The position numbers and the translations under genes are program-made. This document shows, in pieces, positions 1 to 64,000 of a stretch of DNA of 64,000 nt. The stretch covers positions 1,736,001-1,800,000 of the forward strand of contig CP126207.1 of assembly GCA_030272155.1 (NCBI GenBank), in the 5' to 3' direction. How positions within the stretch are numbered: the stretch's first letter is position 1; each line of letters starts with the position of its first letter. A model generated the notes under the pieces. That model did not search any database, was not told the origin of the DNA, and saw only the letters and a list, made by a program, of their open reading frames with translations. The DNA comes from Tetradesmus obliquus (lineage: Eukaryota; Chlorophyta; Chlorophyceae; Sphaeropleales; Scenedesmaceae).

Positions 1-3000
1 AGCATGTCAGGGACATACACACGCACGAGCCCACTCCCGCGCACACACAAACTCACCTGACTGCTGATGCAAGTGCCGTTGCCACCACCAGCAACAGGGC
101 ATGCGCGCTTGTCGTTATGTGAGTATGGGATGCAGTTGCCTGTTGCAGAGTCACAGAGAGATCCGTTGCATGGCAGGGCCTGCAGAGTCACAGAGAGATC
201 CGTTGCATGGCAGGGCCTGCCACACAAGCACAGCAGCAGCAGCAGCAGCAGCAGCGGCAGCAGCAGCACCATGCATTGTCAATGATGATTCAGTATCACT
301 ATCGACTGGCATCCTTGGATTCAGGCATAAGGCCTGGCTTGCCTTTACAACATGCTGTTGATTTCAACTTCCTGCAACCTGAACCTCTGTAGCAGTGCAC
401 CAGCACAAGCACCATTGGCGTGCAAAGAGTTTGCATCATGTTGTTGGCGCTCACTCTGTTAATTTCTCATCTCAGACGATGTGTTCCCCCTGCTGTGGCT
501 CATACCAACTAAGGCGGTGCCAGCACCCACATGTAACTCAACCCTCTCAAGTCATTGTGACAGGTGGCAGCAGCAGTACCCCAAGGGTGCAGGCAACTCA
601 CCGGTCCGCACTTGTTGTTTGGGCATGTGGGTGGTGGGCTTGTTGCATTCACGCATACGCCATTGGAGCATACTCCATCAACACCTGCTGATCCACCAAG
701 ACTGCAGGCAGAAAAAATGCGCGAGTGCAGGTCAGACACATACACACGGAAAGAAAGTCCAGAGCTGCTCGCTCATTATTGCGTTCGCACTAGTCAAGGG
801 CGAACCATACGGGTAGGTGCATGCGCTGCGTCGACAGTACTTGTCAGTGCAATTTACGTCACTTAGCCATCAAATTAGACACAAACAGCTGCTGAGTTTG
901 CAGGCAATGTGCAGTTTCCTGCAAACACGGATAGTCTGGGCTGTATCTTACAAGCGGCTCAGTCGTGTGATGCGGTCGACCGGTTGACGTTGGATCCTCT
1001 TGGAGGGTGCGGGGTGCGCATGTGATCACCATGCAACATGGGAATGCTCTGCTGCAAATGCGCTATGTCACGCATCACCCTTATGTCACACATCACCTGA
1101 CACCGCTGGAATGTTTCCTACACAGACATACGATGCAGCAATGTTTGTCTTGATCTGTTCCTTAGCAAGGACCAGGTGTGCAGTTCCTGCATGCTGCTTT
1201 TGCCCACCGCTGGCCATGCTCACCTGCATGCGCCCTGGTTGAACGTCACAGAACACTGGGAAGACGTAGTGTTACACTGATACGTAGTGCAGTCAGAAAA
1301 CTTCAGCAGGCACTCCTCAAGGCATGGCTCCTTCACCACACTGATGGATGTGTCAACTGTAACGTTGGGTCCTGTCACTGTGGAAACGGTGATACTGGCA
1401 ACGGCCGGGGCCAGGGGCACGCAGATGTAGCACATGGTGCCAAAGGCGTCCGTTACATTGTCACCGACCAACGTGGCCTGAACGATGCCCGGGGGGTTGA
1501 AGGAGGGAAATGTCAGTTGGATGTTGCTGACAACCTGGCCAGGGTCAGTGTACACCACATACAGCAAAAAGGGCTGGAGGGCAGCAAATGAGGAAGGACT
1601 GCCACCATTGGCGGCCGCTGACAGCCCAAATGTCTGCAGCAGCAGGCGAAGCCGCTGTTGAGTTGGCTGCGGCGGCGGCGCGCTTCCTTGACGCTGTTGG
1701 GGTGGGCAGGCTGAGCACAGCGCAAGGTACGGTCGACAACGTGAGGGCGCCGTTGGAAGCGTTCACGGCAGCAGACACCATCTTGTTCAGGGAGTCTGCA
1801 TTTGTGACTTGCAGCAGGGTGTCCCTAAGTGCAGCTGTGCCATTGAATGTGGCCAGCAGCAGCAGCGTGAGCGGCTGGGCAGCCGGTGTGGTGCTGTTGG
1901 TGCTGGCATTGCCAGGCAGGCCGCGGCTGACACACTGGGGCACCACAGATACATCTTGTGCGCCAGAGGTAGTCAGGTACTGCTGCAGGGCTTGGCCAGC
2001 TGCCTGGGGGGCATTGGCAGAGCAGTTGCGGGTGCCAGAAAGCGCGATCGCAACCCTGTAGACCGCGGTGGGGATGGCAACTGGGAGGCAGGTGCCGTTG
2101 ATCTGCCAGCGGTGCCACCTTGGGTGATGCAGCGGGCAGTGATACTGCCTTGGAAGCCTGTGCTGCATCCAGTGGTGCAGTTGCCGCCAAACGTGACGTT
2201 CTGCGCGGGCAGCAGGGAAGTGCAGGCGGGGTGTTTGGTTAGACAGAGGCAGTGCAGTTATGATGTGCTATGCAGCTGGCCATGTGATTGACCCCTGACC
2301 TTGCCGTCATGCGCAGACAGCAGTGACCTCAAAGCGGGTTGTCTGGTCAGGCAGATGCAGCACAGTAATGGCTGTGCAATTGTCAACAACTGTGATGTTC
2401 TGCGCAAGAAGCAGCATGTGAAGGAGGATTCAGGTTGTTGATTGGTATTGTTTGATGCCGTTGTGGCTTGATTGATTGGCAATGCGAGTATGCATTTGGA
2501 GGAAATGACTAAGGGGCGCAACACAGGTTGTCGAATGCTCAGTGCAACTGTCAGCGTGTGCAGCAGTGCTGTCCTCATGCCATGCATGTGCAGCAGAGTT
2601 CAGCAGCAGCATTCACCAGCAGCATCAGCAGCGCCCAGCAGCAGCGCGCATGCCATGCGTGTGCAGCAGTGTTCAGCAGCGACATCAGAGCTCAATGGCT
2701 GTGCTCAAACCCTCAGCAGCATCTCATGCCCTGCATGAGCAGCAGTGCAGCAATGCGCAGCAGCAGCGGCTGTGCCATGCATCTGCAACAGTGCTCTTCT
2801 CAGATGAGATGGGTGAGGCTTTGCCCAGCACCACCGGCGCCTAGTCCTGCTGTTGCCGCAACTGCAAGCTTGGGTTTTGATACACCCCGTGCGGCAAAGG
2901 CTGACCTCCTCACCAACAATGCATCATCATCATGTTACCCATCAAGCCAGAGCATCAACACCATCAACAATGCATTGCACATGCTGCAAGGCAGCAATGG

Positions 3001-6021: not shown

Positions 6022-6525
6022 ATGGAATCCATGAACATAGATCACGAGACAGACGATGATGTCGAAGCAGCCGAGGCAGCAGCTACACTGGGAGCCCTGG
6101 CTTCAGGTGCACAAGGCAGCAGCAGCAGCAGCAGCAGCAGCAGCTAGGGCAGCAGCAGCAGCTAGGGCAGCAGCAGCAGCAGCAGCAGCAATGCAGCAGC
6201 AGCGCTAGGGCTGCAGCAGCTGCAGTGCCGTAGCAGCAGCAAGGGCAGCAGCAGCAGCAGGTGTCACACAGCATGGAGGGTGTTGTACAACTTTGCTGTC
6301 CTCTCCTAACAGTACGGCAGCTGCACCGGATCAGCTTGCGGCACCCAAATGCTTGCAATTAAAGCATCAGCAGTCTTCTGAAACACAGCTATGCTGAGCG
6401 TCCTGCATCACCATCATTCTATCATTCCATCATTCTATCAATCTTCCATCTATCATTCTATACATTGCTACAGTGCTTGAAGGAGAGGCCGCTGCGATCT
6501 TACTGCTGCTTTTTGTGGACTGGTT

Positions 6526-6587
<62 letters not shown>

Positions 6588-8192
6588 CTGCTGCAGGCAC
6601 AGCAGCTGAGGAGGCAGCAGCTGCTGATGACGACCCGCTGCAAGGCCATGAGCGCTACAGCAAGGTGTGCAGCAGGTTTTAGGGACTGGATGTGTGCAGC
6701 AGGTTTTAGTGACTGGATGTTGCTGCTGCCAATGCTGCTGCTGCTGCCACCCTCTTTTCAAAGGGTTGCCAGGTACTGTTCTGCAGCTTTTGTACAGGGT
6801 AATGGATGCTTGCAGGGGCTGCATTTCCAACCAGATGGAACTCCACAGAAGCAGCAGCAGCAGCAGCACTGACGGGCGAGGGGCAAGTCTAAATGCTTCG
6901 TTTCTCAGGGATATGTAACTCATATTCACCCTACCACTACCAGCATCTCCAGGAGAAAGTGATGTTACAATCCTTCTGTGGCTGTCACTTTTGTTATAAC
7001 GCCGCAGGTTGAGGAGCTGGGGCGGGGCAAGTTTGGCGTCGTGCTGCTGGCACATGACAATCAGGGCCAGCAGCAGGTGGCCATAAAGTGCCTCAAGCCC
7101 AATACTGTGACGCTCCGGTGAGATGCTTTTGTGGTCTCTGTGTGTTTTAATTTGATAATGGAATGGCGGCGACTTAGATCTGCCCAGCTTCAATGCAGCC
7201 ATAGCACAGCAACGGCAGCAGCGGCTGCTGTAGTAGTTTCCTTGGGAAAACGGCAGTCAGTGCGTGCAGCAACTGCCAAGTGACGGCAGGGCCAGCAGCA
7301 GGTGGCCATAAAGTGCCTCAAGCCCAACACCGTGACTTTCCGGTGAGATGCTTTTGTGGTCTCTCTGTGTTCCGACTTGGATGATGGAATTGCGGCGACT
7401 TGAATCTGCCAAGCTGTAATGCAGCCATAGCACAGCAACGGCAGCAGCGGCTGCTGTAGTAGTTTTCTTGGAAAAACAGCAGTCAGTGCGGGCAGCAACT
7501 GCCAAGCAATGGCAGAGCCAGCAGCAGGTGGCCATAAAGTGCCTCAAGCCCAACACGGTGACGTTCGGTAAGTATTCTGCGGTCTGCATGTGTCATGATT
7601 GAATTATTGGGTGTATGTTTGATTGTCCAGGATCAAGTAATCCATGGAGCCGCAGCACAGCAACAGCGGCAGGGGCGATGGTATCTTATTCTTCTGAAAA
7701 GTAAATCAGTGCGGGCAGCAAGTGGCAGGCAGTGGCAGGCCCAGCAGCAGGTGGCCATACAGTGCCTCAAGCCCAACACCGTGACGTTCCGGTGAGCTGA
7801 ATAGATTTGCAGCATGTGTGTGTGTCATGATTTGTTTGTTGGGGTGTGTATAAATTGTCCAGGATAAGTGTTCCATGCAGCCGCAACACAGCAGCAGCGG
7901 CAGGGGCGATGGTAGTTTCTTCTTCTGAAAAGTCAGTCAGTGCCGGCAGCAAGTGGCAGGCAGCGGCAGGGCCAGCAGCAGGTGGCCATACAGTGCCTCA
8001 AGCCCAACGCCTTGTCTTGAAGTTCTGAAATGAGTCGGTATTCTGATCTGTGTGTGCCGCAATTTGAGAGTGCTGCTGCTGCTGCTGCTGCTGCTGCCGC
8101 TCTCTTCAACGCAGATACATCTCTGCAGAGGTGCTGAACCACCGCAAGCTGCAGCACCCCTTTGTCATCGGCTTCAAGAAGGTGTTCACAAC

Positions 8193-8228
<36 letters not shown>

Positions 8229-8229
8229 A

Positions 8230-8274
<45 letters not shown>

Positions 8275-8394
8275 CTTTAACGCAGCTACCTCTCTGCAGA
8301 GGTGCTCAACCACCGCAAGCTACAGCACCCCTTTGTCATTGGCTTCAAGGAGGTGTTCACATCACTGCTGCTGCTGCTGCTGCTGCTGCTGCTA

Positions 8395-8439
<45 letters not shown>

Positions 8440-8528
8440 CTTTAACGCAGCTACCTCTCTGCAGAGGTGCTCAACCACCGCAAGCTACAGCACCCCTTTG
8501 TCATTGGCTTCAAGGAGGTGTTCACATC

Positions 8529-8560
<32 letters not shown>

Positions 8561-9465
8561 GCTGCTGCTGCTTCTTCTGCTGCTGCTGTCTTCAACGCAG
8601 CTACATATCTGCAGAGGTGTTGAACCACCGCAAGCTGCAGCACCCCTTTGTCATTGGCTTCAAAGAGGTATTCACAACGCCGCACTACATCTGCATTGTG
8701 ATGGAGTACGCATCGGGACGCAGCCTGTACGAGTGAGTGAAATGCATTGCAAAACATGTGTAGAATGGTTGCTTTCTGTATTAAAAATGCATTTGCATCT
8801 TGACGGAGGGCAGATCTTGTGGGTTACATTTGTGAAACATATGTAACACCAGCAATTTTTAGTTACAGGAGAGCATTTGCATTGTGATGGAGTACGCATC
8901 GGGGCGCAGTCTGTACGAGTGAGTCGGTTGCATTGCAGACAACATTTGTGGGAAATGGTTGATTTCTGTTTTGTAATGTGCATTTGCATCGTGATGGAGG
9001 GCAATCCTTGTGGGTTCCATGTGTTGAACGAGCAACTTTTTGACTGAAGGAGAGCATTGGCATTGTGATGGAGTACGGGGTTCGGGGCGCAGCCTGAACG
9101 AGTAAGTTGCGGTCAAGTTGGTTGCGACTTAGATGCGCGCCCAGTTAAAGTTTTGCTGTCACACGAGCTACACTGCAATAGCTACACTGCGATATGTTTG
9201 CTGTCACACGAGCTACACTGAGATACCCTGTTGCTTCAAGGTTTTGGCCGTAGCTGGCCCTGGCTTATGGGTTTGCCCTCACTGGTTTAGAATCACCCAA
9301 GGTGGTTTGGGAGTGGCTCCCTCCTCTGGGTTCACCTCTTGCTGAAAAAAGTGTTTAATTTGCAATTGACTGTCACACGAGCTACACTGTGATACCCTTT
9401 TGGCGATAGCTGCCGTTCATCTCTTTGCCGGATACTGACACTGTCCCTGGCGCTGTCCCTGCGGC

Positions 9466-9510
<45 letters not shown>

Positions 9511-10833
9511 AGGCACCTGTGCCAGAGCGGCCACTTCAGCGAGACTGCTGCCCGCTGGTTTTTCCAGCAGCTAATCATCGGCCTGGATTACTGCCACCAG
9601 AAAGGTGTTGTCAACAGGGACGTGAAGCTGAACAACATGCTGGTGCAGGTGAGGGTTTGAAATAACAGTTGACAGTTCATGTTTCTAGTTGGTTAGTTCA
9701 TTGTTGATCTGTTTCAGGTTATGATCTCCTGCCACCAGAAAGGTGTTGTCAACAGGGACGTGAAGCTGAACAACATGCTGGTGCAGGTGAGGGTTTGAAA
9801 TAACAGTTGACAGTTCATGTTTTAGTTGGTTATTTCACTGTTGATCTGTTTCAGGGTATGATCTCCTGCCACCAGAAAGGCGTTGTCAACAGGGACGTGA
9901 AGCTGAACAACATGCTGGTGCAGGTGAGGGTTTAGGCATGCTTGGGTTCAGGGTTAAAGGGAAGGCCTGGTTTTGTTTTGTGGTTTAAGGTTCAGGCTGT
10001 GCTAGTGCCATTGAACGTGTGCAGTCAACCCAGGTGCCCAGCTGCATAACACTCCTGTGCATGTAGTGGTTAGCAAGGCTGAGGCTCTGCCAGCAGCTAA
10101 TCATCGGGCTGATAATCATTGCGCTGAATTACTGCCACCAGACAGGCGTTGTCAACAGGGACGTGAAGCTGAACAACGTGCTGGTGCAGGTGAGGATCTG
10201 GTGCTGGTGCAGGTGAGGATCTGGTGCTGGTGCAGGTGAGGATCTGGTGCTGGTGCAGGTGAGGATCTGGTGCTGGTGCAGGTTAGGATCTGGTGCTGGT
10301 GCAGGTTAGGATCTGGTGCTGGTGCAGGTTAGGATCTGGTGCTGGTGCAGGTTAGGATCTGGTGCTGGTGCAGGTTAGGATCTGGTGCTGGTGCAGGTTA
10401 GGATCTGGTGCTGGTGCAGGTTAGGATCTGGTGCTGGTGCAGGTTAGGATCTGGTGCTGGTGCAGGTTAGGATCTGGTGCTGGTGCAGGTTAGGATCTGG
10501 TGCTGGTGCAGGTTAGGATCTGAGACATCAGTCCAAAGTTCATGGTTTCAGATAATAAGTGCGCTGTATCTTTGTTTACAACGGCGATTTACTCGAATTC
10601 GATAGGCGTGGTCAACAGGGACACAAAGCTCAGCAACATGGTGGTGCAGGTGAGGCTACAGGAGGGATGAGGTTCAGCTGTTCAAAGCGAACAGCCAGGT
10701 TCTACCTGCTGAAAACGGGTTGCTGCCGCCACAGCAGCCAGGAGTTTCAGATGAGCAGTTGTGAGGTGGGCCAATATTGCCTGGCAGGAGCAACTCAACC
10801 TGCATGCAGTGTCTTACGCTGCTGTTGCCGATT

Positions 10834-10898
<65 letters not shown>

Positions 10899-12303
10899 TG
10901 TTCCCCAACGAGCCGCGGCCGCCGGTGCTGAAGATTGCCGACTTCGGCTACTGCAAGGCCTACCAGACCAGCGACCCAAAGACCAAGGTGATGGTTGCTG
11001 ATAACATAGATCTTCCGCAACTGATTCGGTAAAATGCATTGATTAGAATCAGGAATTTCGTTATTTGAAAACGTTGCTTACAAAACAAACCTGGTCCAAG
11101 CCATGATTTTTGCTACTTCAAGGCATACCAGACCAGCGACCCCAAGACAAAGGTGATGCATCATAAAACATTAATTGATTATAGCGTATCATGGCGTATT
11201 GCAAGACTTTCCTGATACCAAGCACTATCGCCATGTCCAGGGCTTCTGTCGCCAAGAAGCCGCATTACATTTGACGGCGTCAAATGTGACATCTGGACCT
11301 GCAGATGCCATAACAGCTTGAACCAACCTAACTAACGCCTGCAGGCCAAACAGCCCATTTGCTTACACCACTTATAACTGCATCAAGTGTGACATCTGGA
11401 GCTGCGGCATGCAAAGTTGCCACAACAGACCTAATGCTCCCAAGCAGCTTGCGTACAACGCCAGAGCCGTCTCTCCTTCCACACATGCCTAACCAAACCA
11501 AAAAAATGTTTTGTTTCACCCACTCAACCTGATTCTGCAGGTGGGCACGCTGGTGTGCATGGCGCCGGAAGTGATCAGCTCAAGAACCGGCACAGCATAC
11601 GACGGCGTAAAGTGTGACATCTGGAGCTGCCTCATGCATGGTTGACACAGCAGACCTGATGCTCCCAGGCCAAACACACCTTGCGTACAACGCCAGAGCC
11701 GTCTCTCCTTCCACAAAGTGCTTAACCAAACCATATAACTGATTTGATTCACCCACTCAACCTAATTCCGCCGGTGGGCACGCTGTTGTGCATGGCGCTG
11801 GAAGTGATCAGCTCAAGAAGCGGCACAGCATACGTCGTCGTAAAGTGTGACATCTGGAGCTGCCTCATGCAAAGTTGACACAGCAGACCTAATGCTCCCA
11901 GGCCAAACACGCCTTGCGTACAACGCCAGAGCCGTCTCTCCTTCCACAAAGTGCTTAACCAAACCATATAACTGGTTTAATTCACCCACTCAACCTAATT
12001 CTGCAGGTGGGCACGCTGGTGTGCATGGCGCCGGAAGTGATCAGCTCAAGAAGCGGCACAGCATACGACGGCGTAAAATGTGACATCTGGAGCTGCGGTG
12101 TGATGCTGTTCTGGATGCTGTTTGGCGCCACACCCTTCCCGCCAGACCCGGCAGCGAAATCGCTTGAGGAGCGAAACAAGTTGCTGCTGCTGCGCATCAT
12201 GGAGGGACAGGTGAGGTTATGTTGTTTATGTGTTGTTTATATGCTGTTATTAGTATTATTGGTATTATTGTTGTTATTAAAATTATTATTGGTAATATTG
12301 TTG

Positions 12304-12358
<55 letters not shown>

Positions 12359-13521
12359 ATTATCTTCATTGTTTATATTAGTATCATCTTTACTTTGTTG
12401 TAGTGACAGCTGCAGCTCATCCTCGTGCCCGACCCAGCAGCCACACCTTTTTGCAATGTTGAGTCTATGTTTCACCCTGCTGTCAACTTTGCGGCTAGTA
12501 TCCAAGCCTCACCTGCCTTCAATATATCACTCTCTGTGGCTTTTCCTCACTTTCTCTTCATTCTGAACACAGTGGCAGGCCCCAAGCAGCATCCCAGTCA
12601 GCGAGCCCTGCCTGCACCTGCTGAGACACATCCTGGTGCCAGACCCGGCACAGCGCTACAGCATCGCAGACATCTACGCGCACCAGTGGTTCAAGGAAAA
12701 CCTGCCGGCAGAGGTGAGGGTTCAAGGGTTTGTGTTTTGGTGTTTGTAGTTCTAGGGGCAGCAGCCAAGGCCCATGCAGCGCTGCAAAATTGCAGATGTC
12801 TGAGCACAGCCCTGGTTCAAATGTACGTGGGCAGATGTGAAAATGAGTGTTTACGGTTTGCCTGTTGATGTCTTTGGCACATCCTGGTGCCCGACCCAGC
12901 AAAGCGCTACAGCATTGCAGACATCTACGCACATCAACGGTTCAAGGAAAACCTGCCGGCAGAGGTGAGGGTTCAAGGTTTTCAAGTTTTGATGTTTGTA
13001 GTCTAGGCGCAGCAGCCAAGGCCAATGCACCGCTGCAAAATCGCAGACATTCCAGCACAACACTGGTTCAATTGTATGTGGGCACATGTGGAAACGAGTG
13101 CTTGGCATTTGCCTGTTGATGTCTTGGGCACATCCTGGTGGCAGACCCAGCAAACCGCTACAGCACTGCAGACACATGAACTGCTGCTGCTGCTGCTGCT
13201 GCTGCGCCTTGCAGGCTGAGGCATTGAAGAGGGAGTACTTGGGCAAAGAGGACTACAGCAAGCTGCAGGTGCGCAGGGTGCTTCATGTCTCAATATGATG
13301 TTGCACAGTCGTTTGAAGTCGGGTGTAGCAGATCAGCATGCATGCAGCTGGAGGGTGTTGGTGCTGATAGGCCAAGGCTGAGCAAATAAGACTGCAGTAT
13401 ACTGGACGTGCACTAGTTTTTTGGCTGAAAGAGCTGGCACGGATGTGGTTGCAGCATCTATTTTGGCTTGGTGGTTGCGCCGTGTTCATGCATGGTCTGC
13501 AGTTCCTAATGACATATCATA

Positions 13522-13555
<34 letters not shown>

Positions 13556-13745
13556 AGAGTGAGGAGACAATCAAGCAGGAGCTTGAGAAGGCCATGTTGT
13601 CTCACAGAATGATCCGGCCACTTACATGCTGCTGCTGCTGCTTCTGCTGCTGCTGCTGCTGCTGCTGCAGAGTGAGGAGACAATCAAGCAGGAGCTTGAG
13701 AAGGCCATGCAGCAGTGGGCCATGAACGCGTACAGCTATCAGTGA
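6022..13745 (+). CDS. SnRK2-like Ser/Thr protein kinase (362 aa model)
   Basis: Eleven exons join in frame: 6022-6106, 6597-6664, 7008-7117, 8601-8732, 9513-9648, 10898-10987, 12007-12210, 12579-12713, 13215-13268, 13671-13745; one more may be hidden, but these ten already give ATG to TGA. The protein shows the glycine loop [12 protein letters not shown] lysine, an alpha-C Glu ([15 protein letters not shown]), catalytic loop with NRD in place of HRD, DFGYCK, MAPEV, and [10 protein letters not shown]. The C-lobe end ([18 protein letters not shown]) and a short tail ([12 protein letters not shown]) resemble the SnRK2 family layout, including its SnRK2 box. In plants this family acts in osmotic, ABA and sulfur-stress signalling; the target here is unknown. 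The acidic N-terminal part ([13 protein letters not shown]) is unusual. Nearly every exon is flanked by partial copies of itself, so alternative splicing is possible. It is convergent with the kinase at 17774-25829. Confidence 0.85.
6531..6596 (+). repeat. (CTG)n tract forming the 3' splice site of kinase exon 2
   Basis: About twenty CTG units, interrupted once by CTT, run directly into CTGCAG and the exon at 6597. The repeat occupies the place of a polypyrimidine tract. Confidence 0.85.
7065..8035 (+). repeat. Five ~225-bp tandem copies of the VAIK exon-intron junction
   Basis: The real exon end is at 7065-7117. Copies of the same coding core (CAGCAGGTGGCCATAAAG) start at about 7289, 7514, 7738 and 7969, spaced 224-231 bp. 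Most keep a GT donor after the CCNAANACNGTGAC block. Each copy includes the following intron sequence, so the unit is an exon tail plus intron. Confidence 0.9.
8094..8600 (+). repeat. Three upstream copies of the alpha-C helix exon with CTG tracts
   Basis: Copies start after AACGCAG at about 8117, 8286 and 8456; the full exon starts at 8601. Each copy reads [21 protein letters not shown] protein in frame and is followed by a (CTG)n tract. All keep a 3' splice site in the same phase, so each could serve as an alternative acceptor. Only the last copy continues to the [11 protein letters not shown] end and a GTGAGT donor. Confidence 0.9.
8870..9110 (+). repeat. Copies of the [11 protein letters not shown] exon end in the following intron
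   Basis: Segments at about 8876-8921 and 9053-9103 repeat the exon tail that ends at 8732, including GAGTGAGT or GAGTAAGT donor contexts. A shorter relic lies near 8980-9000. Confidence 0.85.
9133..9512 (+). repeat. ACGAGCTACACTG repeats and (CTG)n acceptor tract
   Basis: The intron holds several copies of TGTCACACGAGCTACACTG between 9160 and 9390. It ends in a (CTG)n run at about 9469-9510 that forms the acceptor of the exon at 9513. Confidence 0.75.
9720..10195 (+). repeat. Partial copies of the catalytic-loop exon
   Basis: Copies of the coding segment for [19 protein letters not shown] start at about 9730 and 9868, 138-139 bp apart. A more diverged one lies at 10083-10190. The first two have their own acceptor (CTGTTTCAG) and donor (CAGGTGAGG), so they form complete mini-exons in frame. 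Confidence 0.9.
10167..10521 (+). repeat. 23-bp array repeating a 5' splice site 15 times
   Basis: Fifteen tandem units contain GGTGCAGGTGAGGATCTG or the variant with GTTAGG. The unit is the junction of the catalytic-loop exon with its intron. The first four units have GTGAGG donors and the next eleven have GTTAGG. Confidence 0.95.
10838..10897 (+). repeat. (CTG)n tract forming the acceptor of the DFG exon
   Basis: A run of about eighteen CTG units ends in CTGCCAG directly before the DFG exon at 10898. Confidence 0.9.
11096..12006 (+). repeat. Tandem copies of DFG-exon end and activation-segment exon (233-bp period)
   Basis: A copy of the DFG exon tail (ACCAGACCAGCGACCCCAAG) lies at about 11125-11150. 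The start of the APE exon is then repeated at 11541, 11774 and 12007, exactly 233 bp apart. A worn copy lies 233 bp upstream near 11308. The 11541 copy keeps CTGCAG before the exon, while the 11774 copy has CCGCCG and has lost its acceptor. Confidence 0.92.
12308..12356. repeat. (ATT)n microsatellite
   Basis: About sixteen TTA/ATT units lie in an A+T-rich intron (12220-12400) that contrasts with the G+C-rich surroundings. Confidence 0.95.
12720..13200 (+). repeat. Copies of the C-lobe end exon
   Basis: The exon 12579-12713 is partly repeated at about 12889-12966 (with GCAGAGGTGAGGG donor), at 13020-13080 and at 13125-13175. The 12.9 kb copy keeps the frame for the [14 protein letters not shown] segment but has a CAACGG instead of CAGTGG codon pair. 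Confidence 0.85.
13530..13600 (+). repeat. Copy of the last kinase exon start with (CTG)n acceptor
   Basis: A (CTG)n tract and the exon start [13 protein letters not shown] at 13558-13598 precede an almost identical arrangement ending at the real exon 13671. Confidence 0.9.
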
Positions 13746-17773: not shown

Positions 17774-20700
17774 TCACACCTCCTGCATCACATCACCTGC
17801 TGCTGCTGCTGCCACGATCTGCTCAATGTCTGCCTCCCTTTGCGTGCAGCTGCTGGGCCGGCTAAGAAACTTGTCCACCATGTCCAGCGCCCCTGGAGGC
17901 AGGCCTGCACCAATGGCAGCAAAAGGAGCAACATCAACAGCAGCATTTGCTGGCATTGCCAACATGTGAATGGTGTACTGCATACACGCGCCACCGCCTT
18001 GTCGCCCCTCAGAAAAAATAAACCATGCCAGGCTACGACACATGCAGCCCCCCAGTGTCATCTGCGTGATACATCTAAACATTTCAAATGCAACAAGATT
18101 TGCTAATATGATACACACACTAAACCACAGACCCTCTACCCCAAGACACTCGACGAGTACGACGTACATGTGAGGAACCATGGGTCCCGCAGCACGCCTT
18201 CCATCTTGGTGCGGCAGTGGGCCGATCAACATCTGGTGCCGGACATAAAACCCCAACCCCGCAAGATTACCAAGCGCCACCTTGAGCTTTGAGACACTCG
18301 TACCTGTGAGGAACCAAGGGTCCCGCAACACGCCTTCCATCTTGATGCGCTGCAGTGGGTCTGGGTGCAGCAGACGGCGCAGCAGCGCCTGGCAGCAGCT
18401 TGACAAGCTGTCAGGCATTTCATACACCTGCACCAGCGGCAGCAACAGCAGCAGTGGCAAATACATCGATTTACATTGCTTGCAAGACAGCAGTCTGCGT
18501 AGCAGCGCCCGACAGCAGCTTGACAACCTGTGGAGACAACGGCAGCAACAACGGCAGCAGAAGAATCATCATTGGATCACATGCGTGCGCATGTGCTTGC
18601 AAACGTGCATGCGCGCATGCGTATGCAAACGCGCCCCGCGCCATGCGTTTGCCAATTTACACGCGCACCCAATCGTCTGCAAACGTGCACGCGTGCATGC
18701 GCTTGCAAAGATGCATGCGCACGTGACCTTCTGCAAGTGTGCAAACGCATGCCTGTCTGCAAACATGCACGCGCGCACATGCGCTTGCAAATGTGCACAC
18801 GTGCGCACGCTTCTACCAACACGCAAATGTGCACACGTGCGCTTGCGCTTGCAAACGTGCACGCGCACACATACTTCTGCAAACATGCTTGTGCGTGCAC
18901 TGGTTTGCAAACGTGCACGCACACACATGTGCTTGATAGCAGTCAAGCCCCCACATGCGAATACGAACGTGCAGGCGTGCCCATGCGCCTGCAACCATCA
19001 ACCGCGCATGCGTCTCATGACATGTACGCGTGCACATGTGCCTGCAACTGTGCATTCACGCACAACCATGTGCAAACACGCACGCGCGGGCATGCGTCTA
19101 CAAAAGTGCACGTGCATGCATGAGTTTGCAAATGCGCTGGTGCGCGCGCTTATGATTGCAAGCACATGAACAAGCATGTATGTTTGCAGATGCATGCGCA
19201 CACATTCACTGTTTGGGTTGCAACAGGGCACGATTGCACATGAACATGCATGTACGATGGCAGATCCATGCATCTACAACTTTGCACACACGCGCATGCG
19301 TCTGCAAGCGTGAACACATGGGTTCCAAAAGTGCACATTCTTGTGAATAGGCATGTGAACGCGCGTGCATGGGCGAGCGACACACGCGCATGACAGCATG
19401 CGCGCGCACGTGTCTGACGAACCGCACATGCACCCGCATGTCAACATCACATGCACGCGCATGTCAACATCACATGCACGCGCATGTCAACATCACATGC
19501 ACGCGCATGTCAACATCACATGCACGCGCATGTCAACATCACATGCACGCGCATGTCAACATCACATGCACGCGCATGTCAACATCACAACTAGCGTACT
19601 TGTGTGATAAATTCCATGTGCGCGCGCCTGGACCCAAACACGGGTGCATAAACGGCCAACACACGCGCGCAAGTATGTGTGCATGCCAAACACGCGTGAG
19701 CGCTTGGACACGATACATGCGCGCGCACGCGCTCGGGCGAGCGATACAGGCACTTGTGTGTATGACAAAACACAGGCGTGAGCGCAAGAACAATACATGC
19801 ATGGGCGTGCACAGATGCAACACACGCGTGCCCGCATGGACGACACGCATGCGCGTGCGTGTGACTTATGAATTGTGTGAAGGCATGGATAACACAGCAT
19901 TGCACCACATGGACGCACTAATATACACTCGTAAACATGCACGAACGCAGACGCGCTCGCAAATGTGCGTGTTGCATGTCCGCGCAAATGTGAAAACATG
20001 CACATCCGGTTGCACATTGGATGTGCCGCGCGCGCATGTGCCTGCACACCCGCATTCAATGCATGCGTCGAAAAACTCGCACGCATGCATGCGCTATCGC
20101 GAACCTACACGTGTCGAACGCGAGCAAATATGTGTGCTCGCTTGAGCGCACAAACATGACCACGCGCGAAGACACAAATGGCGCGCAAGTGGTCACAACC
20201 TGCACGCGTCGCATGGGCTCGCGATAGTGCATTCGCGCGAAAACATGGAATGACACGCAAACAAACACATGCGCAAACCAACGCACGCACATGCGTTTAC
20301 AAGCGTGCTGGTGCGCGCATGCAACCGCACAAGTGCATGTGTTGCGCACAAGAACAGAACAAATGAGCATATGGTTTGATATCTAGACTCGCATACTCAA
20401 GCCGAACAATACCAAATAATCCACATGCCTGTACAACAACAATTCATATACCTACATGCCTAAATACATCACCCCACCTGGTTGGCCATCTGTTGCAGCA
20501 GCTTCTTGTTTGCGCCTCCTTCATCAGCAAAGGGCCGCCGCCCCAACAACATCGTGTACAGCACCACACCGCAACTTCACATGTCCACCAACGCGCATGC
20601 ACACAACAAACAAAACAAAATGCAAGCATGCTGACAGAGTGCGCAGCATACCAGAGCACATACACACGCAACAACATGCACACGTGTGCACGCACAACCA

Positions 20701-22114
20701 CATTATGCACTGCACGCGCAGCACACGCGTTAGTCCAACCGCAACACGAGCTTGCAAGCATGCACGCATACAAACGTGGAAAGACATGCAACAAAAGCTC
20801 GCAACCAAGCACAAACTAACAAGCAGCAACCATACGGCAACACAGATGCACAAACTTCTTGCACGCACCACACAAGCTTGATCTGCGTGCACGCGCGCAC
20901 CTGACTGACGTGCAAAAAAAAATCCAGGCAGCACAAACGCTCGCGCACCAGCACACTTTCCCATTCGGTACCCACACCCTACACCCAGTTGCACACAAGC
21001 ATAAGCACAAGCTGGTCTCAGACACGACACCCAGCCCCAGAAAAACCCTCACCTGGTTGGCCATTTGCTGCAGCAGCTTCTTGTTTGCGCCCCCTTCATC
21101 TGCAAAGGGCCGCCGCCCCAGCAGCATCGTGTACAACACCACGCCACAGCTCCAGAGGTCTGCTGCAAAGCCGTCATACAGCTGCTGCTCCGACTGCAGG
21201 CAGTTCTGCAGCACTTCTGGCGCCATGTATGCCACGGTGCCCTGCAGCACCAGGCATGCAACAGAAGCAGCAACAATAGCAGCATCAACAGACATGTGGA
21301 AGCAACCACAGAGGCAGCTGCAGCCACCAGGTCACATCAAGAGCCCATGTGTAACACAGCTGCTGATGCAACATTCCGCAGATGCGTGATTCAAGAGGTG
21401 ACTTCTGCAATGTGAACGATGAGTGGATCCAATAAGTAAAGTGGACACTGCTTTGCACCCACCACTGCTGTGCGCGGCCCTGCTTCAGCCAGCTTGCTGT
21501 AGCCCCAGTCACACAGCTTCACAATCGGCAGCGCCCTGCCTTGTATGTGCTGCAGGCAGCAGACAAAGACAACAGTGGCAGGCCATCAAATACTTGCTGG
21601 GTTGAGTAGGTGATTGAAGCATCCACTATTACAATCGACAGCGCCTTGCCTTGCATGTGCTGCAGGCAGGAAAATAAACAGCAGCAATGGCATGTCTCAA
21701 TGACTGGTGCTGAGCCAAGCGCACATATTGGCGGTGCACAGTTGGCCCCCATCACACAGCTTCACAATCGGCAGCGTCTTGCCCTACATGTGCTGCAAGC
21801 AGCGGAAGATGGCACGCCACAGCAGATAGTACTGGCAGCTCCAAAGGCATCAGCAGGCAAGGGGACATTTTTTACAGTGCACGCACCTGCAGCAGGATGT
21901 TTTCCAGCTTGATGTCCCTGTTGGTGACGCCCTTCTTGTGGCAGTAGTCCACTGCGATCATGATCTGCTGGAAGAACCACCTAGCAGCAGCAGCAGCGGC
22001 AGCAGCAGCAGCAGCGGCAGCAGCAATGTTCGTGACGCCCTTCCTGTGGCAGTGCTCCACTGCGATCATGATCTGCTGGAAGAACCACCTGGCAGCAGCA
22101 GCAATGGCGGCGGC

Positions 22115-22152
<38 letters not shown>

Positions 22153-25100
22153 TGTTGGTGATACCCTTCCCTGTGGCAGTAGTCCACTGCGATCATGATC
22201 TGCTGGAAGAAACACCTGGCAGCAACAGCAACGGCGGCAGGAGCGAGTCTCGGACACCGGTTTTACATGTCTGTGCTGCTTGCTCGCACTCAAAGAGCAT
22301 CTCTGCTGCTTCAAGCAAGTCAGCGGCTGACTAGCGCACTGCCAGATAGGTGCCGCCACATGCACCTCGGTAAGATGGTGTGCTCCTCAGCAATGTTGCG
22401 CTGCAACGGGTTTGACTGCACTCCAGACATCGGCAAAATACACAAGCTGTGTACTGACGGCGCACCTCGCGTCCTTTTCTGACAGCCGCCGGTGCCTCTT
22501 GACGTGATCAAAGAGGCTGCCACCGTTGGCGTACTCCATCACAATATTCAGGTGGTTGTTGGTCAAGAACACCTGCGGTGTCAAAAACGTGCATGAATGG
22601 CGTTGCAGCACAAGCTGATCTGCACTCTGTGTTGTGCAGCAGCGTGGGTGATGTCCATCACTGGGTTGAGGTGAATATCCATCAATGAAAGGCAAAACCT
22701 CAACAAATCAAACAGACCTCATCCAAAAGAGTGCGCACGTCATGGAAGTTTGACCACATCGGGGTGGCACAGCTGCCTGTGGTTGAGAAAGCTTGACAGG
22801 AAGCAGGTGCCCCAGGCAGTCACCCGAGCCCCTAAACCGCCAAACATCCAAACCCTAAACTGAAACAAAAACCATGCCGCACCTCATGGAACTTGACCAC
22901 ATGTGGGTGGCACAGCTGCCTGTGGTTGAGGATCTCCGACCGGACGTAGATGGACGAACCCTGGCCATACAACCTGAGCCAAAAGCAACGCAACCCTAAG
23001 AGGCTTATTACACTGGGGCTTATCATGGCCATGAACAGTTTGGACCCCCCCTGAGTGTATTACACTAGGGAAATGTCACAGCTCGTTTATTCTTCGCCAT
23101 CTGCGCTACATTTAAAGTTTTAAAGAGATTAGTAATGACAATACATCATTGAACCATGGTGCGGTAGCCTGTGCCGTGCACTGCCACCCCTGTCTCTCTT
23201 GCCAGTGTCTCTGGGGCCCAACTGAGTGCATCGCTCAGCATCGCGAAATCAACGCGGAAGCCAGAATTAAACAAGCAAATGTATTAATAGATGTATAAAA
23301 ACATAATTAAGCACGAACATGCGCGGCATAATCGTTTTTGATGCACCTGGTTTTTGAACCCCCCCCCCCCCCCCCCTCCCCTTGGGGGGGGGGGTACAAG
23401 GCCCCAACTGCTCGGTGCTACTGTAGCTCCTGTGAGGCTTCGCTTTCGCTTTTTTCGACAGATATTACATTGTTATGCTATATTTAATCTTTTATGAGCA
23501 AAAATGTAGCCAAGTTCACCGCGTTTAAAAAAAAGTCCATAATAAAGTGGGTTTATGGGCGCGCCAGTGTAGTAAGCCTGTCAACCCTCCGACCGCACCT
23601 CATGGAACTTGACCACATGTGGGTGGCACAGCTGCCTGCGGTTGAGGATCTCCAACAGAAGTAGGGCTAACACCACCAGACCATTTACACCAAAACCTCA
23701 AAACACTAACAGTCATCAAACCCTGACTATCCTAAAACCCAAGGAAACACGATGTGTTGCCGCACCTCATGGAACTTGACCACATGTGGGTGGCACAGCT
23801 GCCTGTGGTTGAGGATCTCTGACAGGAAGTAGGGGCTGTAGTGGCAGCGCTGCAGCTTCTTGACAGCAACCACCTCATGAGTTGTCACATCCTCCGCCTG
23901 ATTTGCAGAGAAAAGGAGATGAAGCAAGCAAGGAGTCGGTGTCAGTAAGGCAGTGAGGTGAGAACACTGAATAATAAGCTTCATGGGCTGTTGAAGTACC
24001 TATCGGCATGCACAGCGGCAGGAAGTAGGGGCTGTAGTGGCAGCGCTGCAGCTTCTGTACGGCAACCACCTCATGAGTTGTCACATCCTCCGCCTGTTTT
24101 GGGAATCGGGAGGTGAAGCAAGCAAGGTGTGTTTGTCAGTGAGGCAGTCAGGCAAGCAAGGGGTGTAAGGCAGTGAGGCAAGCGCGGCACTGAACGTTTT
24201 CTTGGCTGGGTGGAGTGCCTCTACTGACAGGAAGTAGGAGCTGTAGTGGCAGCGCTGCAGCTTCTTGACAGCAACCACCTCGTGGGTGGTCACATCCTCC
24301 GCCTGATTTGCAGAGAAAAGGAGATGAAGCAAGCAAGGTGTGGATGTCAGTAAGGCAGTCAGGCAAGCAAGGGGTGTAGGGTAGTGAGGCAAGCGCGGCA
24401 CTGAAAGTTTCCTTGGCTGGGTGGAGTGCCTATACTGACAGGAAGTAGGGGCTGTAGTGGCAGCGCTGCAGCTTCTTTACGGCAACCACGTGCTGGGTGG
24501 TCACATCCTCCGCCTGTTTTGGAATCGGGAGGTGACGCAAGCAAGGTGTGGGTGTCAGTAACGCAGCCAGTTACGCAGTGTTTGCTGCAATGAAGCAAGT
24601 ACACTCAGGTTGGGTGGAGTGCTTATCGGCAGGAATAGCGACAGGAACTAGGCGGTCTGGAAGCAGCGCTGCTACAGCCCCAACTTCAATGTCAGGCTGA
24701 AGTTGTCACAACTCATGAGGTGCTTGATGTGGAGCAGCTGCTACTAGACCGCCTACCTCCTGTCACTATTCCTGCCGTTTTTGGAGGCGCAGGGCGGTGC
24801 ATATACCTGGTCAGCATAACACAATCCAAGAGAAACCCCACCAGTTGCCTGCACCACAGCCCCAAACGCGCCGCCCCCCAGGTGCTTGATGAACCTGTAC
24901 TTCTGCTGCAGCATGCATGACGACACACACCTGATCAGACACGCATGGTCAAACGCACCTGGTCAACATCAACTATAACAGCATAAAACAACAAAAAAGA
25001 GGTTGAGTCGGCCACTTGCCTGCACCACAGCCCCCAAATTACCGCCCTCCAGGTGCTGGATGCACCTGTACTTCTGCTGCAGCATGCATGACGACACACA

Positions 25101-27608: not shown

Positions 27609-27839
27609 ATGAATCTGCCACCAGAAACTTCCCGGGAGTTCCTTTTGAATTTTGCCCGGATGCTTAACCCTAATGCCACACCAGAGCAAGTGGAGGCACT
27701 TGCAGCACAGACTGCAGCAAACATGCAGCAGGACAGCGCTGCAGCACCAGCAGCAGCAGCAGCACAGCCGGCTGCAGAAGGTGCAGCAGGTGATGCGGCA
27801 GAGCCAGCCGCTGCAGCAGCAGCGGGGGGGCCCGCCAAT

Positions 27840-27875
<36 letters not shown>

Positions 27876-28069
27876 CAGCCAGCACCTCGATCAACTGCTG
27901 CATCCGCAGCACCTGATGCAGCTGCAGTGGCAGCAGCAACAACACTGGCAGCAGCAGCAGCAGCAATGATGGATGCTCAGCAGCCGCAGCAGGGCGGCAG
28001 CAGTGCGCGGCCGCAGCTGCAGCAGCCGGCTGCACTGAAGCTGCCCACTGCACTGCCGGCGTCTGAGAT

Positions 28070-28105
<36 letters not shown>

Positions 28106-28862
28106 GCTGCCGTTGAGGGGTCCTCACTGGTCCCTCCAGGTTGGACACCAATGCCTGTGAGTGACACTTGCAGCAGTGCTGTGGTGGCTGTGCGGTGTGT
28201 GCTGCTGCCCTGTGTGTCATGTGAAAACACATGCTTTGCGCTGGGTTGGTCTTGGCAGATGCTGCTCCTGTGTTGTCAACGGCTCAACCCTGGCGGCTGC
28301 TGCTGCTGCTGCTGTCACACGCAGGAGCTCCGGGTGTGCTGACCTGTCATGCGGCCTGTGCAAGCGCAACGAGAGCCGCCGCTGCAAGACAGACTTGAAG
28401 GCCAAATATGTCGCTAACCTGCTGCTCCTGCTGCTGCTCCTGCTGCTGCTGCTGCTGCTGCTGACTGCAGGAGCTCCGGGTGTGCTGACCTGTCCTGCTG
28501 CCTGTGCAAGCACAACGAGAGCCGCCGCTGCAAGACAGACTTGAGGGCGAAGTATGTAACAAGGGACTACCTGCGGTCAAACTGCGGGGCAGGGCTGCTG
28601 CTGGCTCTGGTGGATGAGTCGGGGCAGCGCTGCAGCCAGCAGCTGCCAGGCTGGAAGCTGCAGGTGAGGAGGTGACTAATTACTAGCAGAGCTGTTGACC
28701 AGCTTCTTTACATGTGTTTTGGCCCTGCTGCTGCCATCATGTGTCGAGCATTATATCCCAACAAATGCGACATCTTCATCTTTTGACTGCTGCTGCCAGG
28801 TGTGTATGCTGGATGCGAAGCGCTACAAGCAGCTCAACCCTTGCAATGACCATCGCTGCTGC

Positions 28863-28896
<34 letters not shown>

Positions 28897-62000: not shown

Positions 62001-63066
62001 TAACAGTTGATTGATTCATCAAATGACAACAAGAAGGACTCACTTTGAGTAGGTGTTGATGTAAGAGCCAGGGGCACAGATGTACTACATATCTTGATGA
62101 TGGTATTGCCATTTTAACAGATATCACCAGCAAATTTTCAACCAAAGACTTCATTGTTCGACTCACTTTGAGTAGGCATTGATGTAAGAGCCAGGGGCAC
62201 AGATGTGTGGCGACAGCTGCAGAGCTGGGTGCTGCGGTGCAACAGAAGCATACGGAACACGCAGAACGTGAGCGGATCGAGCTCGCTTCAGGTGCGTTTC
62301 CTGCAGTGCTGCAGCTGTTTTGCTGTTGCCTGGCTGGTCACACTGGCGCCAGCAAAGTATATGCAAATGAAGTGGAGTTTACAAGCACTGCTTGCTTTGA
62401 ACAAGTGCCTGGAGCAGGCTCTAAGGCGAACATTCCCAGCTCCTGCTGGGTTCTGGATATGCGGAGTCTACGCTCTCTTTGCAGGGAACTGAGCTGAGGG
62501 CAAAGGACAGGGCCGTTATCACCGTGTAACACCCAGGCCTTATAACACCCTTCTTGTAGGTGACATATAAAGCGCTGATGAACTCACAGGCCCAAAGGAC
62601 GAGAAGTCGCTGATCGCCATGATGTCGTCGATTGTTCAACCTGTTGAAGCTCATACCGTCTAAGATGGTGCCAGGACCCACATGTAACTATCGTCTCTAA
62701 CACAAATTTGTGTTAAACACTGTGGCAGTGGTGTTTGGCTGCATTGCTTGCTTTGAGCAAGCACCTAGAGCAGGCTGATAAGTGGCCACCTCCAGTTCTT
62801 GCATGTTTCTGGTCTGCTCAGCGGAACTTCGAAAACGACCTATCAAACCTGACAGCTCACCGGCCCAAAGGAGGAGAAGTCGCTGATCGCCATGATGTCG
62901 TCGACGTCGATGCTTCCCGCGCCGATCGAGCCAACCGTGATCGAGCCGACGGCGAGCGCGACGTCCGACTCGAAGAACACCCCCGACGTTCCACTGTTCC
63001 CGGCAGACTTGACGGCCAGCACGCCTTTCTCCCACGCTGCTTCCATCACGTCCGCGTACGGGCTCT

Positions 63067-63119
<53 letters not shown>

Positions 63120-64000
63120 CCAGCAAAACATGTCAAGCAATGTTGCCAGGCCATACATCAAGGCAGCAGGAGCAGCAGCAGCATATACTACACCATCTCA
63201 CTCTGAGTGCGCTGTACGGCGAGAACCCAGCGACGCACATATATAAGGACTCACCCGCTCCTCAAAAAACCCTGAACCAGAGGCAGCTGACAGGTTGATG
63301 ACGTGACAGCCGTGTCTCACGGCCCCGTCAATAGCAGGGCTAGACATCATGATGACAGCCGTCACAGCCATGGCCCCCCTAAACCCTTGCGGCCATACCA
63401 AACATCCAGTTTTTGTACTTATCTTTGTAACATTCATCCCATTGTTCACTCACCCGCTCCTCAAACCCTGAGCCTGAGGCAGCCGACAGGTTGATGATGT
63501 GGCAGCCGTCCTTCACTGCCCTGAGCAGGGATGATCACAGCATCCGCAGCCACTCCTCTGCAGCCAAATATTCTGTGGATGCCCAGCTTGGCGCCCGAAG
63601 CGCTGCTGATGCTGCTGCTAAACCCTATGCACACACATACCAAAACCCTGCAACAACACAAACAAAAGAGGACTCACCCGCTCCTTCAACCCTGAGCCAG
63701 AGGCAGCTGACAGGTTGATGATGTGGCAGCCATCCTTCACTGCTCGGTCCAGAGCAGGGATGATCACAGCATCCGTGGCCACTCCCCTGCAACCAAATAT
63801 CCTGTAGATGCCCAGCTTGGTGCCTGGCGTGATGCTGCTGCTCAACCCCATGCACACACATACCAAAACCCTGCAACAACACAAACAAAAGAGGACTCAC
63901 CCGCTCCTCAAACCCTGAGCCAGAGGCAGCTGACAGGTTGATGATGTGGCAGCCATCCTTCACTGCTCGGTCCAGAGCAGGGATGATCACATCATCCGTG
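56960..64000 (-). CDS. Subtilisin-like serine protease (S8), N-terminal part beyond the window
   Basis: Exons join in frame from 63823-63678 through 63064-62861, 62216-62167, 61657-61602, 61096-61048, 60473-60349, 59584-59398, 59001-58884, 58509-57962 and 57233-56960 (stop). Visible subtilase motifs are HIINLSAASGSG, the oxyanion Asn (KSAGNSG), DFSSFGP, PHICAPGSYI, catalytic Ser in GTSFSCPYMAG, and CGGGVIQADALLDNQI after the catalytic domain. The Asp and His of the triad must lie beyond 64000. The C-terminal part has Ser/Asn-rich linker sequence with many sequons (NMTSNSNTTSNST) and an Arg/Lys-rich end. Secretion is inferred from sequons and family. Secreted algal subtilases act in mother-wall release, which is one possible role. 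Most exons have partial tandem copies. Which of three or four copies of the HIINLSAASGSG exon is used cannot be told. Confidence 0.85.
57330..57595 (-). repeat. Two copies of the last subtilase exon start
   Basis: The LYVDLLHARNGTKIGSLQP segment with its TTTGCAG-type acceptor recurs at about 57330-57426 and 57505-57592 upstream of the real exon at 57233. Confidence 0.92.
57762..57812 (-). repeat. Copy of the end of exon 58509-57962
   Basis: The CTGCATGGGGGTCTGCGGCG block and the GTGACGCT segment repeat 57960-57995, including the TGAGCTG donor side. Confidence 0.85.
58525..58700 (-). repeat. CTG tracts (sense) and copy of the LNFTLPAEL exon start
   Basis: 58577-58625 repeats the exon start at 58509 with a GTGTAG acceptor. 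CAG runs on the plus strand at 58529-58560 and 58634-58691 read as CTG in the gene. Confidence 0.88.
59002..59175 (-). repeat. (CTG)n acceptor (sense) and broken copy of the NNWYGTD exon
   Basis: CAG run 59005-59056 is (CTG)n in the gene and ends at the acceptor of exon 59001. A frame-broken copy of that exon's start lies at about 59060-59145, followed by another CAG run. Confidence 0.9.
59275..59355 (-). repeat. Copy of the exon end at 59398
   Basis: The AANDVTFEVKHVPA-like end with CATCACGTGAGTTG donor recurs about 125 bp downstream of the real one. Confidence 0.92.
59650..59865 (-). repeat. Two upstream copies of the VIQADALLDNQI exon start
   Basis: Copies at about 59665-59722 and 59795-59860 have their own AG acceptors. 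The real full-length exon starts at 59584. Confidence 0.9.
60170..60770 (-). repeat. Copies on both sides of exon 60473-60349
   Basis: 60675-60755 repeats the exon start (RRALRPAELSQAAALRAIV). 60176-60250 repeats the exon end with the GGCGGAGGTGAG donor. Confidence 0.9.
60775..60900. other. A+T-rich patch in subtilase intron
   Basis: A strongly A+T-rich stretch of about 110 bp contrasts with its surroundings. No function is apparent. Confidence 0.7.
61320..61630 (-). repeat. ~120-bp tandem copies of the catalytic-Ser exon end
   Basis: The end of exon 61657-61602 plus intron recurs at about 61441-61540 (GTSFSC-type, with GGCAGGCGAG in place of the GT donor) and 61325-61420 (more worn). The linker GCTGCCAAGCCAACATNACA is shared. 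Confidence 0.9.
62040..62095 (-). repeat. Copy of the ICAPGSYINAYSK exon
   Basis: This repeats exon 62216-62167 with the same TCAAAGTGAGT donor. The 5' part is lost. Confidence 0.9.
62580..62635 (-). repeat. Copy of the end of exon 63064-62861
   Basis: The segment for DIMAISDFSSFGP with a GTGAGTTC donor recurs about 280 bp downstream. Confidence 0.92.
62663..62692. repeat. 30-bp dispersed repeat, copy 2
   Basis: Identical to 40633-40662. Confidence 0.85.
63068..63118 (-). repeat. (CTG)n acceptor tract (sense)
   Basis: Sixteen CAG units on the plus strand read as CTG in the gene and run into the acceptor of exon 63064. Confidence 0.93.
63255..63620 (-). repeat. Two further copies of the HIINLSAASGSG exon
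   Basis: A copy at about 63450-63600 is frame-broken (bases lost after ATCCCTGCTC). A diverged but open copy lies at about 63262-63400 (HVINLSAASGSGFFEER). Another intact one reaches 64000 from 63901. All end in GCGGGTGAGT. Confidence 0.92.

Follow-up and report, generated by a model that had tools for sequence, protein, structure and literature searches.

Exon stuttering is a recently named instability of introns, described so far in bird chromosomes, in which lateral parts of exons are copied, together with their donor or acceptor splice site, through the adjacent intron (Hron et al. 2026, PMC12954441). The accessible text of that study reports 236 introns in 115 chicken genes, 190 on dot chromosomes, with strong length polymorphism; its authors suggest replication stress or meiotic gene conversion while leaving the mechanism open, and, except for gerbil genes (data not shown), they report none in other vertebrates. 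The present analysis concerns a 64,000-bp stretch of the green alga Tetradesmus obliquus, C17:1736001-1800000 (hereafter the window; C17 comprises 3,054,181 bp, and the assembly 104.66 Mb in 17 contigs), in which three genes, termed A, B, and C, carry partial copies of their own exon edges in the adjacent introns. An initial annotation of the window had recognized no named system of this kind, a statement overtaken by the publication of the same anatomy in 2026 as exon stuttering. We propose, with a probability of roughly 0.6, that these introns have grown by exon stuttering, i.e., by recurrent local duplication across exon borders and amplification through recombination, probably in part between diverged alleles. 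All results derive from one assembly, of which approximately 314 kb were sampled for repeat statistics, in addition to approximately 39 kb of gene pieces; since the pairs belonging to one array depend on each other, the p-values given below are optimistic.

The exon borders of genes A-C were placed at the nearest canonical splice dinucleotide, with the first exons of genes B and C lying outside the models. The screen used in the published exon-stuttering work (blastn-short, length of at least 20, bit score of at least 42.1) was repeated on these models and returned 36 matches, with copies of the adjacent exon edge held by 14 of the 20 introns. Every copy is direct (36/36); the non-adjacent introns of the same genes yielded no match in this screen, and shuffled introns yielded none with a length of at least 20. 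The copies, 21 donor-side and 15 acceptor-side, are all partial exons of 30-152 bp (median 57), and their identity to the exon ranges from 82 to 100%; the "well over thirty" copies of different ages that had been announced for the window are hence reached in genes A-C alone. The extra copies are located on the intron side of the full exon: those of its 3' part follow it, and those of its 5' part precede it. The copied source lies no more than 1 nt from the exon border in 21/36 and no more than 10 nt in 30/36, distances which are blurred by BLAST trimming, masking, and the nearest-dinucleotide borders.

At the level of arrays, 18 of the 20 in genes A-C touch an exon edge and two are purely intronic, while none has both members inside exons (for the last exon of gene C, the first 200 nt were covered). 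Random placement of arrays of equal span touches an exon in 12.1 of 20 cases; contact with exon edges is thus partly expected, since exons and introns are short, although the observed contact exceeds this expectation. The earlier claim that the copies are centered on splice junctions is therefore retained in part, the remainder being a matter of geometry. The decoy splice sites that had been predicted are present, as a strong donor is kept in the copy in 20 of the 26 rows of spaced donor-type pairs. Within spaced pairs, the donor is mostly positioned 5-8 bp inside the edge of the repeated block, and in 25/69 pairs it stands at the edge.

The scale of local duplication was determined by self-BLASTN of the window after masking microsatellites, i.e., repeats of a period up to 12. 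This comparison revealed 167 direct pairs within 1.5 kb, with a largest offset of 1,316 bp, as well as 7 inverted and 4 distant direct pairs (an initial run with different settings had given 158 pairs), and direct local duplications cover 22,298 of the 64,000 bp. Second-order Markov shuffles of 26 stretches (20 loci and six window pieces) contained 0 bp of duplicated sequence. These pair counts and empty shuffles indicate a genuine repetition that acts locally and almost always in direct orientation. Not all copies are direct, as a partial copy of the exon B2 edge outside the modeled introns is inverted (23852-23901 against 24692-24741). Unit offsets in the window have a median of 171 bp (5-95%: 76-582; 89 units), with 37/89 at 100-175 bp; outside the window, with the satellite-like stretches L020 and L021 dropped, the median is 139 bp (92 units), with 55/92 at 100-175 bp. 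An Okazaki or nucleosome unit length was considered as the source of the spacing and rejected, as the offset distribution showed broad modes only, and microhomology at breakpoints was likewise set aside because simple young pairs were too few to judge.

Beyond the window, local direct duplications were detected in 17 of 23 further stretches of 10 kb, with 196 direct, 7 inverted, and 6 distant pairs and a mean of 1,272 bp (median 1,114 bp) per 10 kb; the six 10-kb pieces of the window average 3,350 bp each, which makes the window a dense example. L020 and L021 were left out of these and of the chromosome statistics; they are satellite-like, consisting of arrays with ~280- and ~345-bp units (C16) and of 10 kb that is repetitive throughout (C17). 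Furthermore, family scans of the genome revealed overlapping partial exon matches in conserved genes (HSP70, kinesin, and SNF2), and inspection confirmed duplication in 5 of 6 places, namely HSP70 on C17 and C13, kinesin on C2, and SNF2 on C8 and C7; a kinesin overlap on C5 (L033) proved to hold no duplication. Other candidate overlaps from these scans are in SNF2 genes on C12 and C10 and in AAA genes on C7 and C12. By eye, the scanned families comprise ~9 (HSP70), ~35 (kinesin), and ~30 (SNF2) gene clusters; copies long enough for the family models occur only in a minority of genes, and shorter copies would be missed. A kinase family scan, with 115 of 744 candidates scored, was kept out of these counts. 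In the HSP70 gene on C13 (L029), the neighboring copies 2 and 3 are nearly identical, intron included, and they differ from the real exon by nine synonymous changes and one nonsynonymous change, including a serine AGC/TCT switch.

The distribution among chromosomes is uneven. Five stretches on the three largest chromosomes, C1-C3, contain 0, 0, 176, 0, and 0 bp, a mean of 35 bp per 10 kb versus 1,616 bp in the 18 others (Mann-Whitney p 0.004), and duplication coverage falls with chromosome size (rho -0.50, p 0.015, n=23). Conserved-gene pieces display the same direction, with 128/17,708 bp covered on C1-C3 (0.7%, 8 pieces) versus 2,185/15,706 bp on C10-C15 (13.9%, 6 pieces, chosen without places already inspected). 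No correlation of coverage with GC was found among the 23 stretches (rho 0.18, p 0.40), and GC is thus no explanation for the chromosome difference. The phenomenon is widespread, while the three largest chromosomes are almost free of it in the samples, and the description "genome-wide" requires this restriction.

The divergence between copies and exons carries information on their history. Where the reading frame is known, the comparison of copy and exon (62 pairs) gave 235 synonymous differences, 151 nonsynonymous ones, and 17 frameshift indels, the latter in 15 pairs. When changes were collapsed (exon F0, which is among the 62 pairs, being left out here), 163 of 296 were synonymous (0.55). 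The share expected is 0.274 when changes of this spectrum fall at random, and 0.43 for a neutral copy of an exon that accepts synonymous changes alone. Of the changes common to all copies of an exon, 27 are synonymous and 6 nonsynonymous, a ratio that fits an exon branch under constraint; the corresponding numbers are 72 and 82 for changes in a subset of copies, and 64 and 45 at single-copy loci. An earlier test with longest-ORF (open reading frame) frames on discontinuous pairs without L020 (113 synonymous, 170 nonsynonymous; synonymous share 0.40 against a null of 0.28; stops 3 versus 12.3) was replaced by the test with known frames. The copies are decaying, yet part of their divergence arose under coding constraint, which implies either the joining of already diverged alleles or a temporary use of some copies. 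Gene conversion alone was rejected as a source, on the reasoning that it would not raise the synonymous share.

An explanation without any inter-allelic step or special mechanism is that slippage during replication, or tandem duplication mediated by microhomology, takes place on a single chromatid and is followed by neutral change. It agrees with arrays that are contiguous including the intron, such as 9591-9933 in gene A (97.6% identity) and copies 2 and 3 of L029, and with gapped alignment of donor-type pairs (L020 and L021 dropped), in which introns are homologous in 65/112 pairs with an identity of 94.4% in the exon and 82.5% in the intron; 36/112 pairs remain at z of no more than 2 in the gapped intron comparison. 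However, simulated neutral tandem duplication from one allele gave, for pairs of at least 90% identity, an aligned/offset ratio of at least 0.8 in 25/27 or 17/22 cases under two indel settings (a third, old-only setting left 2 detectable pairs), whereas among the observed pairs of at least 90% identity, with microsatellite-flanked pairs dropped, 1/21 falls at a ratio of 0.8-1.15, 5 above 1.15, and 15 below 0.75. One-allele neutral duplication thus fails to reproduce the young pairs, and the synonymous excess also stands against it; we regard it as possible but unlikely.

For exon stuttering, the following course is proposed. A short local duplication, with an offset of mostly ~75-300 bp and nearly always direct, would span an exon-intron border and thereby place a partial exon copy with its splice site in the adjoining intron. 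Such a duplication would be tolerated because splicing can use the splice site of the full exon, whereas a duplication within an exon would be removed because the protein would change. The outer splice site, which is attached to the full exon, would be the one used, and the extra copy would become intron. In later rounds, unequal recombination or slippage between copies may add further copies, the intronic ones decaying while purifying selection spares the exons. Amplification is presumed to proceed by recombination, and some of the initial copies probably joined alleles that had already diverged. Exchange between homologs is suggested as one source by the synonymous excess, the young pairs without matching introns, the scarcity of contiguous two-copy young pairs, and the chromosome gradient; smaller chromosomes as a rule recombine more per base.

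Growth of this type would predict long introns, and the introns of T. obliquus average 462 bp, well above the means of four other green algae, R. subcapitata (230 bp), M. neglectum (302 bp), C. zofingiensis (284 bp), and C. reinhardtii (270 bp), in the accessible text of PMC5966456. A wider proposal, namely that stuttering is a general eukaryotic mode of intron growth by unequal meiotic exchange between diverged homologs, which acts inversely to chromosome size, affects most chromosomes of this alga, explains its introns of nearly double the length in relatives, and leaves fossils of old alleles of exon edges, is put forward tentatively and must be considered doubtful.

Several results weigh against growth by recombination between diverged alleles as set out above. 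Plain neutral decay of the copies predicts poorly that 47/62 pairs are without a frameshift, and stops in copies number 1 versus 6.8 expected. The difference among chromosomes was measured on 23 stretches and 14 gene pieces; at the gene level it amounts to 1/8 versus 4/6 (Fisher p 0.09), and the kinesin gene on C2 has an array, so C2 is not free. Stretches richer in microsatellites also have a higher coverage (rho 0.49, p 0.019), the relation of microsatellite content to chromosome size being non-significant (rho 0.25, p 0.25). Additionally, among 32 spaced pairs of at least 90% identity, the spacer in 23 is without detectable similarity to either flank (p>0.05), and such homology-free spacers are explained well neither by slippage nor by moderate allelic divergence. 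A junction-anchored insertion of exon edges without intron had been suggested by spaced pairs with sharp edges at donor +6 to +8. In an ungapped comparison of 135 donor anchors, identity was 0.84 at +3..+6 and 0.67 at +7..+10, with 0.85 and 0.81 for random anchors, a measure which included the satellite locus L020 and overstates the discontinuity. The insertion model is weakened because introns are homologous in 65/112 donor pairs and because the high exon identity arises partly from nonsynonymous constraint, although the 23 pairs without spacer homology are not accounted for by these points.

The scarcity of stops and frameshifts, together with the synonymous excess, would also be consistent with the copies being functional alternative or mutually exclusive exons under selection; the initial annotation had spoken of candidate alternative exons. 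Moreover, the annotated gene A protein P0001 (OEZ86_007234) includes an extra in-frame 23-residue copy of the catalytic loop, spliced from the third copy of exon A5 (9846-9926), which is preceded by an acceptor-like sequence. Nevertheless, the screened copies are only donor-side or acceptor-side parts of exons, 15/62 pairs are frameshifted, a single copy is all that is seen in the covered parts of the relatives' proteins (P0002, P0003, P0004, and P0121), and an additional catalytic loop would probably spoil the kinase. As a general function of the copies, alternative exons are thus quite unlikely, and the claim is not supported.

Copies often differ mainly at synonymous sites and in introns, in the manner of two alleles, as would be expected if diverged haplotypes or noisy reads had been wrongly joined in tandem during assembly. 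This is judged very unlikely, since up to five extra copies of differing divergence in single arrays (L030 and gene A), copies decayed by frameshifts, and the difference among chromosomes do not fit random joining; the independent UTEX 393 assembly is also long-introned, an agreement in the accessible text of PMC5966456 that concerns intron length and not the arrays. Insertion of an introner-like mobile element at splice junctions with duplication of the target, to which the many spacers without homology to either flank would be congenial, can hardly be maintained, as what is repeated is an exon edge of the gene itself and no spacer family emerged in the 314 kb compared, where 34/67 spacers had any other match, mostly to the same array or low-complexity stretches, with a few matches to dispersed repeats.

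The coordinates of the genes and of their arrays are compiled in Table 1.

Table 1. Genes and exon-edge copies in the window (coordinates within the window)
Feature	Position	Strand	Basis
Gene A, SnRK2-like protein kinase, 10 exons	6022..13745	+	tblastn of P0001 (OEZ86_007234) and relatives P0002-P0004
Donor-type array, end of exon A3 and four copies with or without 5' splice site, unit ~226 bp	7036..8066	+	
Acceptor-type array, exon A4 start copied three times together with CTG tracts and the acceptor, unit 150-171 bp	8102..8678	+	
Two donor-type copies, end of exon A4, unit ~186 bp	8688..9107	+	
Donor-type array, catalytic-loop exon A5, unit 137 bp, followed by 23-bp minisatellite	9567..10701	+	
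Donor-type copy, end of exon A6	10940..11158	+	
Acceptor-type array, start of exon A7, unit 233 bp (TRF: 3.1 copies)	11253..12096	+	
Donor-type array, end of exon A8, unit 251 bp, final copy partial	12627..13174	+	
Acceptor-type copy, start of last exon A10, 100% identical over 39 nt	13556..13709	+	
Gene B, SnRK2-like kinase, six exons modeled (18.3-23.9 kb)	18304..25494	-	tblastn with related proteins
Donor-type copy, end of exon B7, 108 bp, 88%, one in-frame stop	20472..21160	-	
Acceptor-type copies of exon B5 at 108 bp and 126 bp from the source	21919..22238	-	
Both edges of exon B2 copied	22734..24672	-	self-BLASTN pairs
Gene C, CAG-rich protein, seven exons from 28.47 kb read by hand	27611..35240	+	
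Exon C3 edges, with acceptor-type copies before the exon and donor-type copies after it	28787..29602	+	
Copies of exon C5 and C6 edges	30292..31785	+	
Acceptor-type array before last large exon of gene C, offset ~275 bp	32487..33054	+	
Donor-type copy of putative subtilase-like exon, 95.7% over 47 bp	62037..62206	-	
Donor-type array of putative subtilase-like exon, unit ~223 bp, reaches window end	63228..64000	-	

Exon-edge copies are present in most introns of gene A, in which the copies of the start of exon A4 sit upstream of the real exon. An ORF at 8034-8843, sought among public proteins as an independent copy of an array, gave no match. The 23-bp minisatellite (15 copies, 10178-10522) has grown from the exon-intron junction of A5 and contains a donor-like site in every unit.

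Gene B has an ortholog in Scenedesmus sp. NREL 46B-D3 (P0121, 88% identical). Its array at 18.58-20.32 kb is purely intronic, and a further exon near 24.8-25.5 kb, outside the exon model, falls within an array. Exon B2 is accompanied by three donor-type copies at 22.73-23.67 kb and three acceptor-side copies at 23.82-24.67 kb (unit ~200 bp). An imperfect 151-bp palindrome (24627-24777), partly the inverted copy of the exon B2 edge, lies beside the array, and a stretch of ~650 bp with a C-run/G-run hairpin (22950-23590), possibly an insertion, separates two copies of the B2 edge. A near-identical T. obliquus protein of normal length was sought for gene B, with none among the best 120 of 261 matches; the gene may have been missed or mangled in the annotation. 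Exon-edge copies may confuse gene annotation, as the extra catalytic loop of P0001 and the case of gene B illustrate.

Gene C gave no Pfam match above the cut-off. Copying goes beyond introns, as the 3' flanks of genes A and C (13706-13907 and 34720-36254, respectively) contain copies of the gene ends with the stop-codon region. At the right end of the window, a sub-threshold Pfam match (E 0.025) and inspection by eye suggest a subtilase-like gene; no homology was detected for the spacer of its copy at 62037..62206. The statement that all six genes of the window are affected goes beyond the models, which comprise genes A-C and two exons of the subtilase-like gene; no genes were established at ~36-57 kb, where several arrays (39.7-41.8, 44.4-47.2, and 54.4-56.0 kb) resemble ordinary minisatellites. 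Pfam searches of 20 further ORFs or exons and 10 large ORFs gave nothing above the cut-off, and neither an Rfam match at gathering score nor a tRNA was found.

Among the systems with which the alga can be compared, introners are set apart by one element in the introns of many genes, whereas no spacer family was found in the 314 kb compared here. In mutually exclusive or tandem duplicated exons, the entire exon with its two splice sites is present and under coding selection; the algal copies share with them the adjacency of exon-sequence copies with splice sites but are partial, with frameshifts in 15/62 pairs. In the accessible text on the LRR genes of Tetrahymena (PMC6564038), unequal crossing-over is likewise proposed to multiply exon/intron units, although the 90-bp exon/intron repeats there belong to that single gene family. 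Intron gain by AGGT tandem duplication, as presented in the accessible text of PMC3443670, a review that cites Gao & Lynch 2009 and Hellsten 2011, also makes new splice sites by tandem duplication of a gene segment; there, however, the exonic duplicate becomes a new intron. In the alga, the duplication runs across a border already present and lengthens the intron there; the copies lie within introns between the modeled exons, and contiguous arrays contain intron sequence.

In the literature search, the only matching description was that in birds, together with the unpublished remark on gerbil; few subscription papers were covered, and absence elsewhere is not implied. The accessible texts on phytochelatin synthase of Scenedesmus acutus (PMC12899622) and on the genome of Scenedesmus NREL 46B-D3 (PMC7955037) do not mention exon-edge duplication. 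Its independent occurrence in an alga that can be cultured indicates that the instability does not need GC-rich microchromosomes, and it allows experiments that birds do not permit, so that the instability becomes testable in a simple culturable microbe.

Set against the accessible text of PMC12954441, the alga differs from chicken in several respects: it is a green alga, its copies are not confined to GC-rich microchromosomes but occur on most of the chromosomes sampled, and the association with GC suggested by the chicken authors does not appear (rho 0.18). Sources lie no more than one base from the border in over 90% of the chicken cases and in 21/36 here, where trimming and masking blur the borders, and length polymorphism has been shown in chicken, while the alga was analyzed in one assembly. 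In both, direct, imperfect, tandem copies of lateral exon parts with a splice site occupy the adjacent intron and leave the exon intact, the copies measure tens to hundreds of bases, the same BLAST criteria find them, and they are associated with smaller chromosomes. The algal case thus belongs with exon stuttering, in a distant lineage and a different GC setting.

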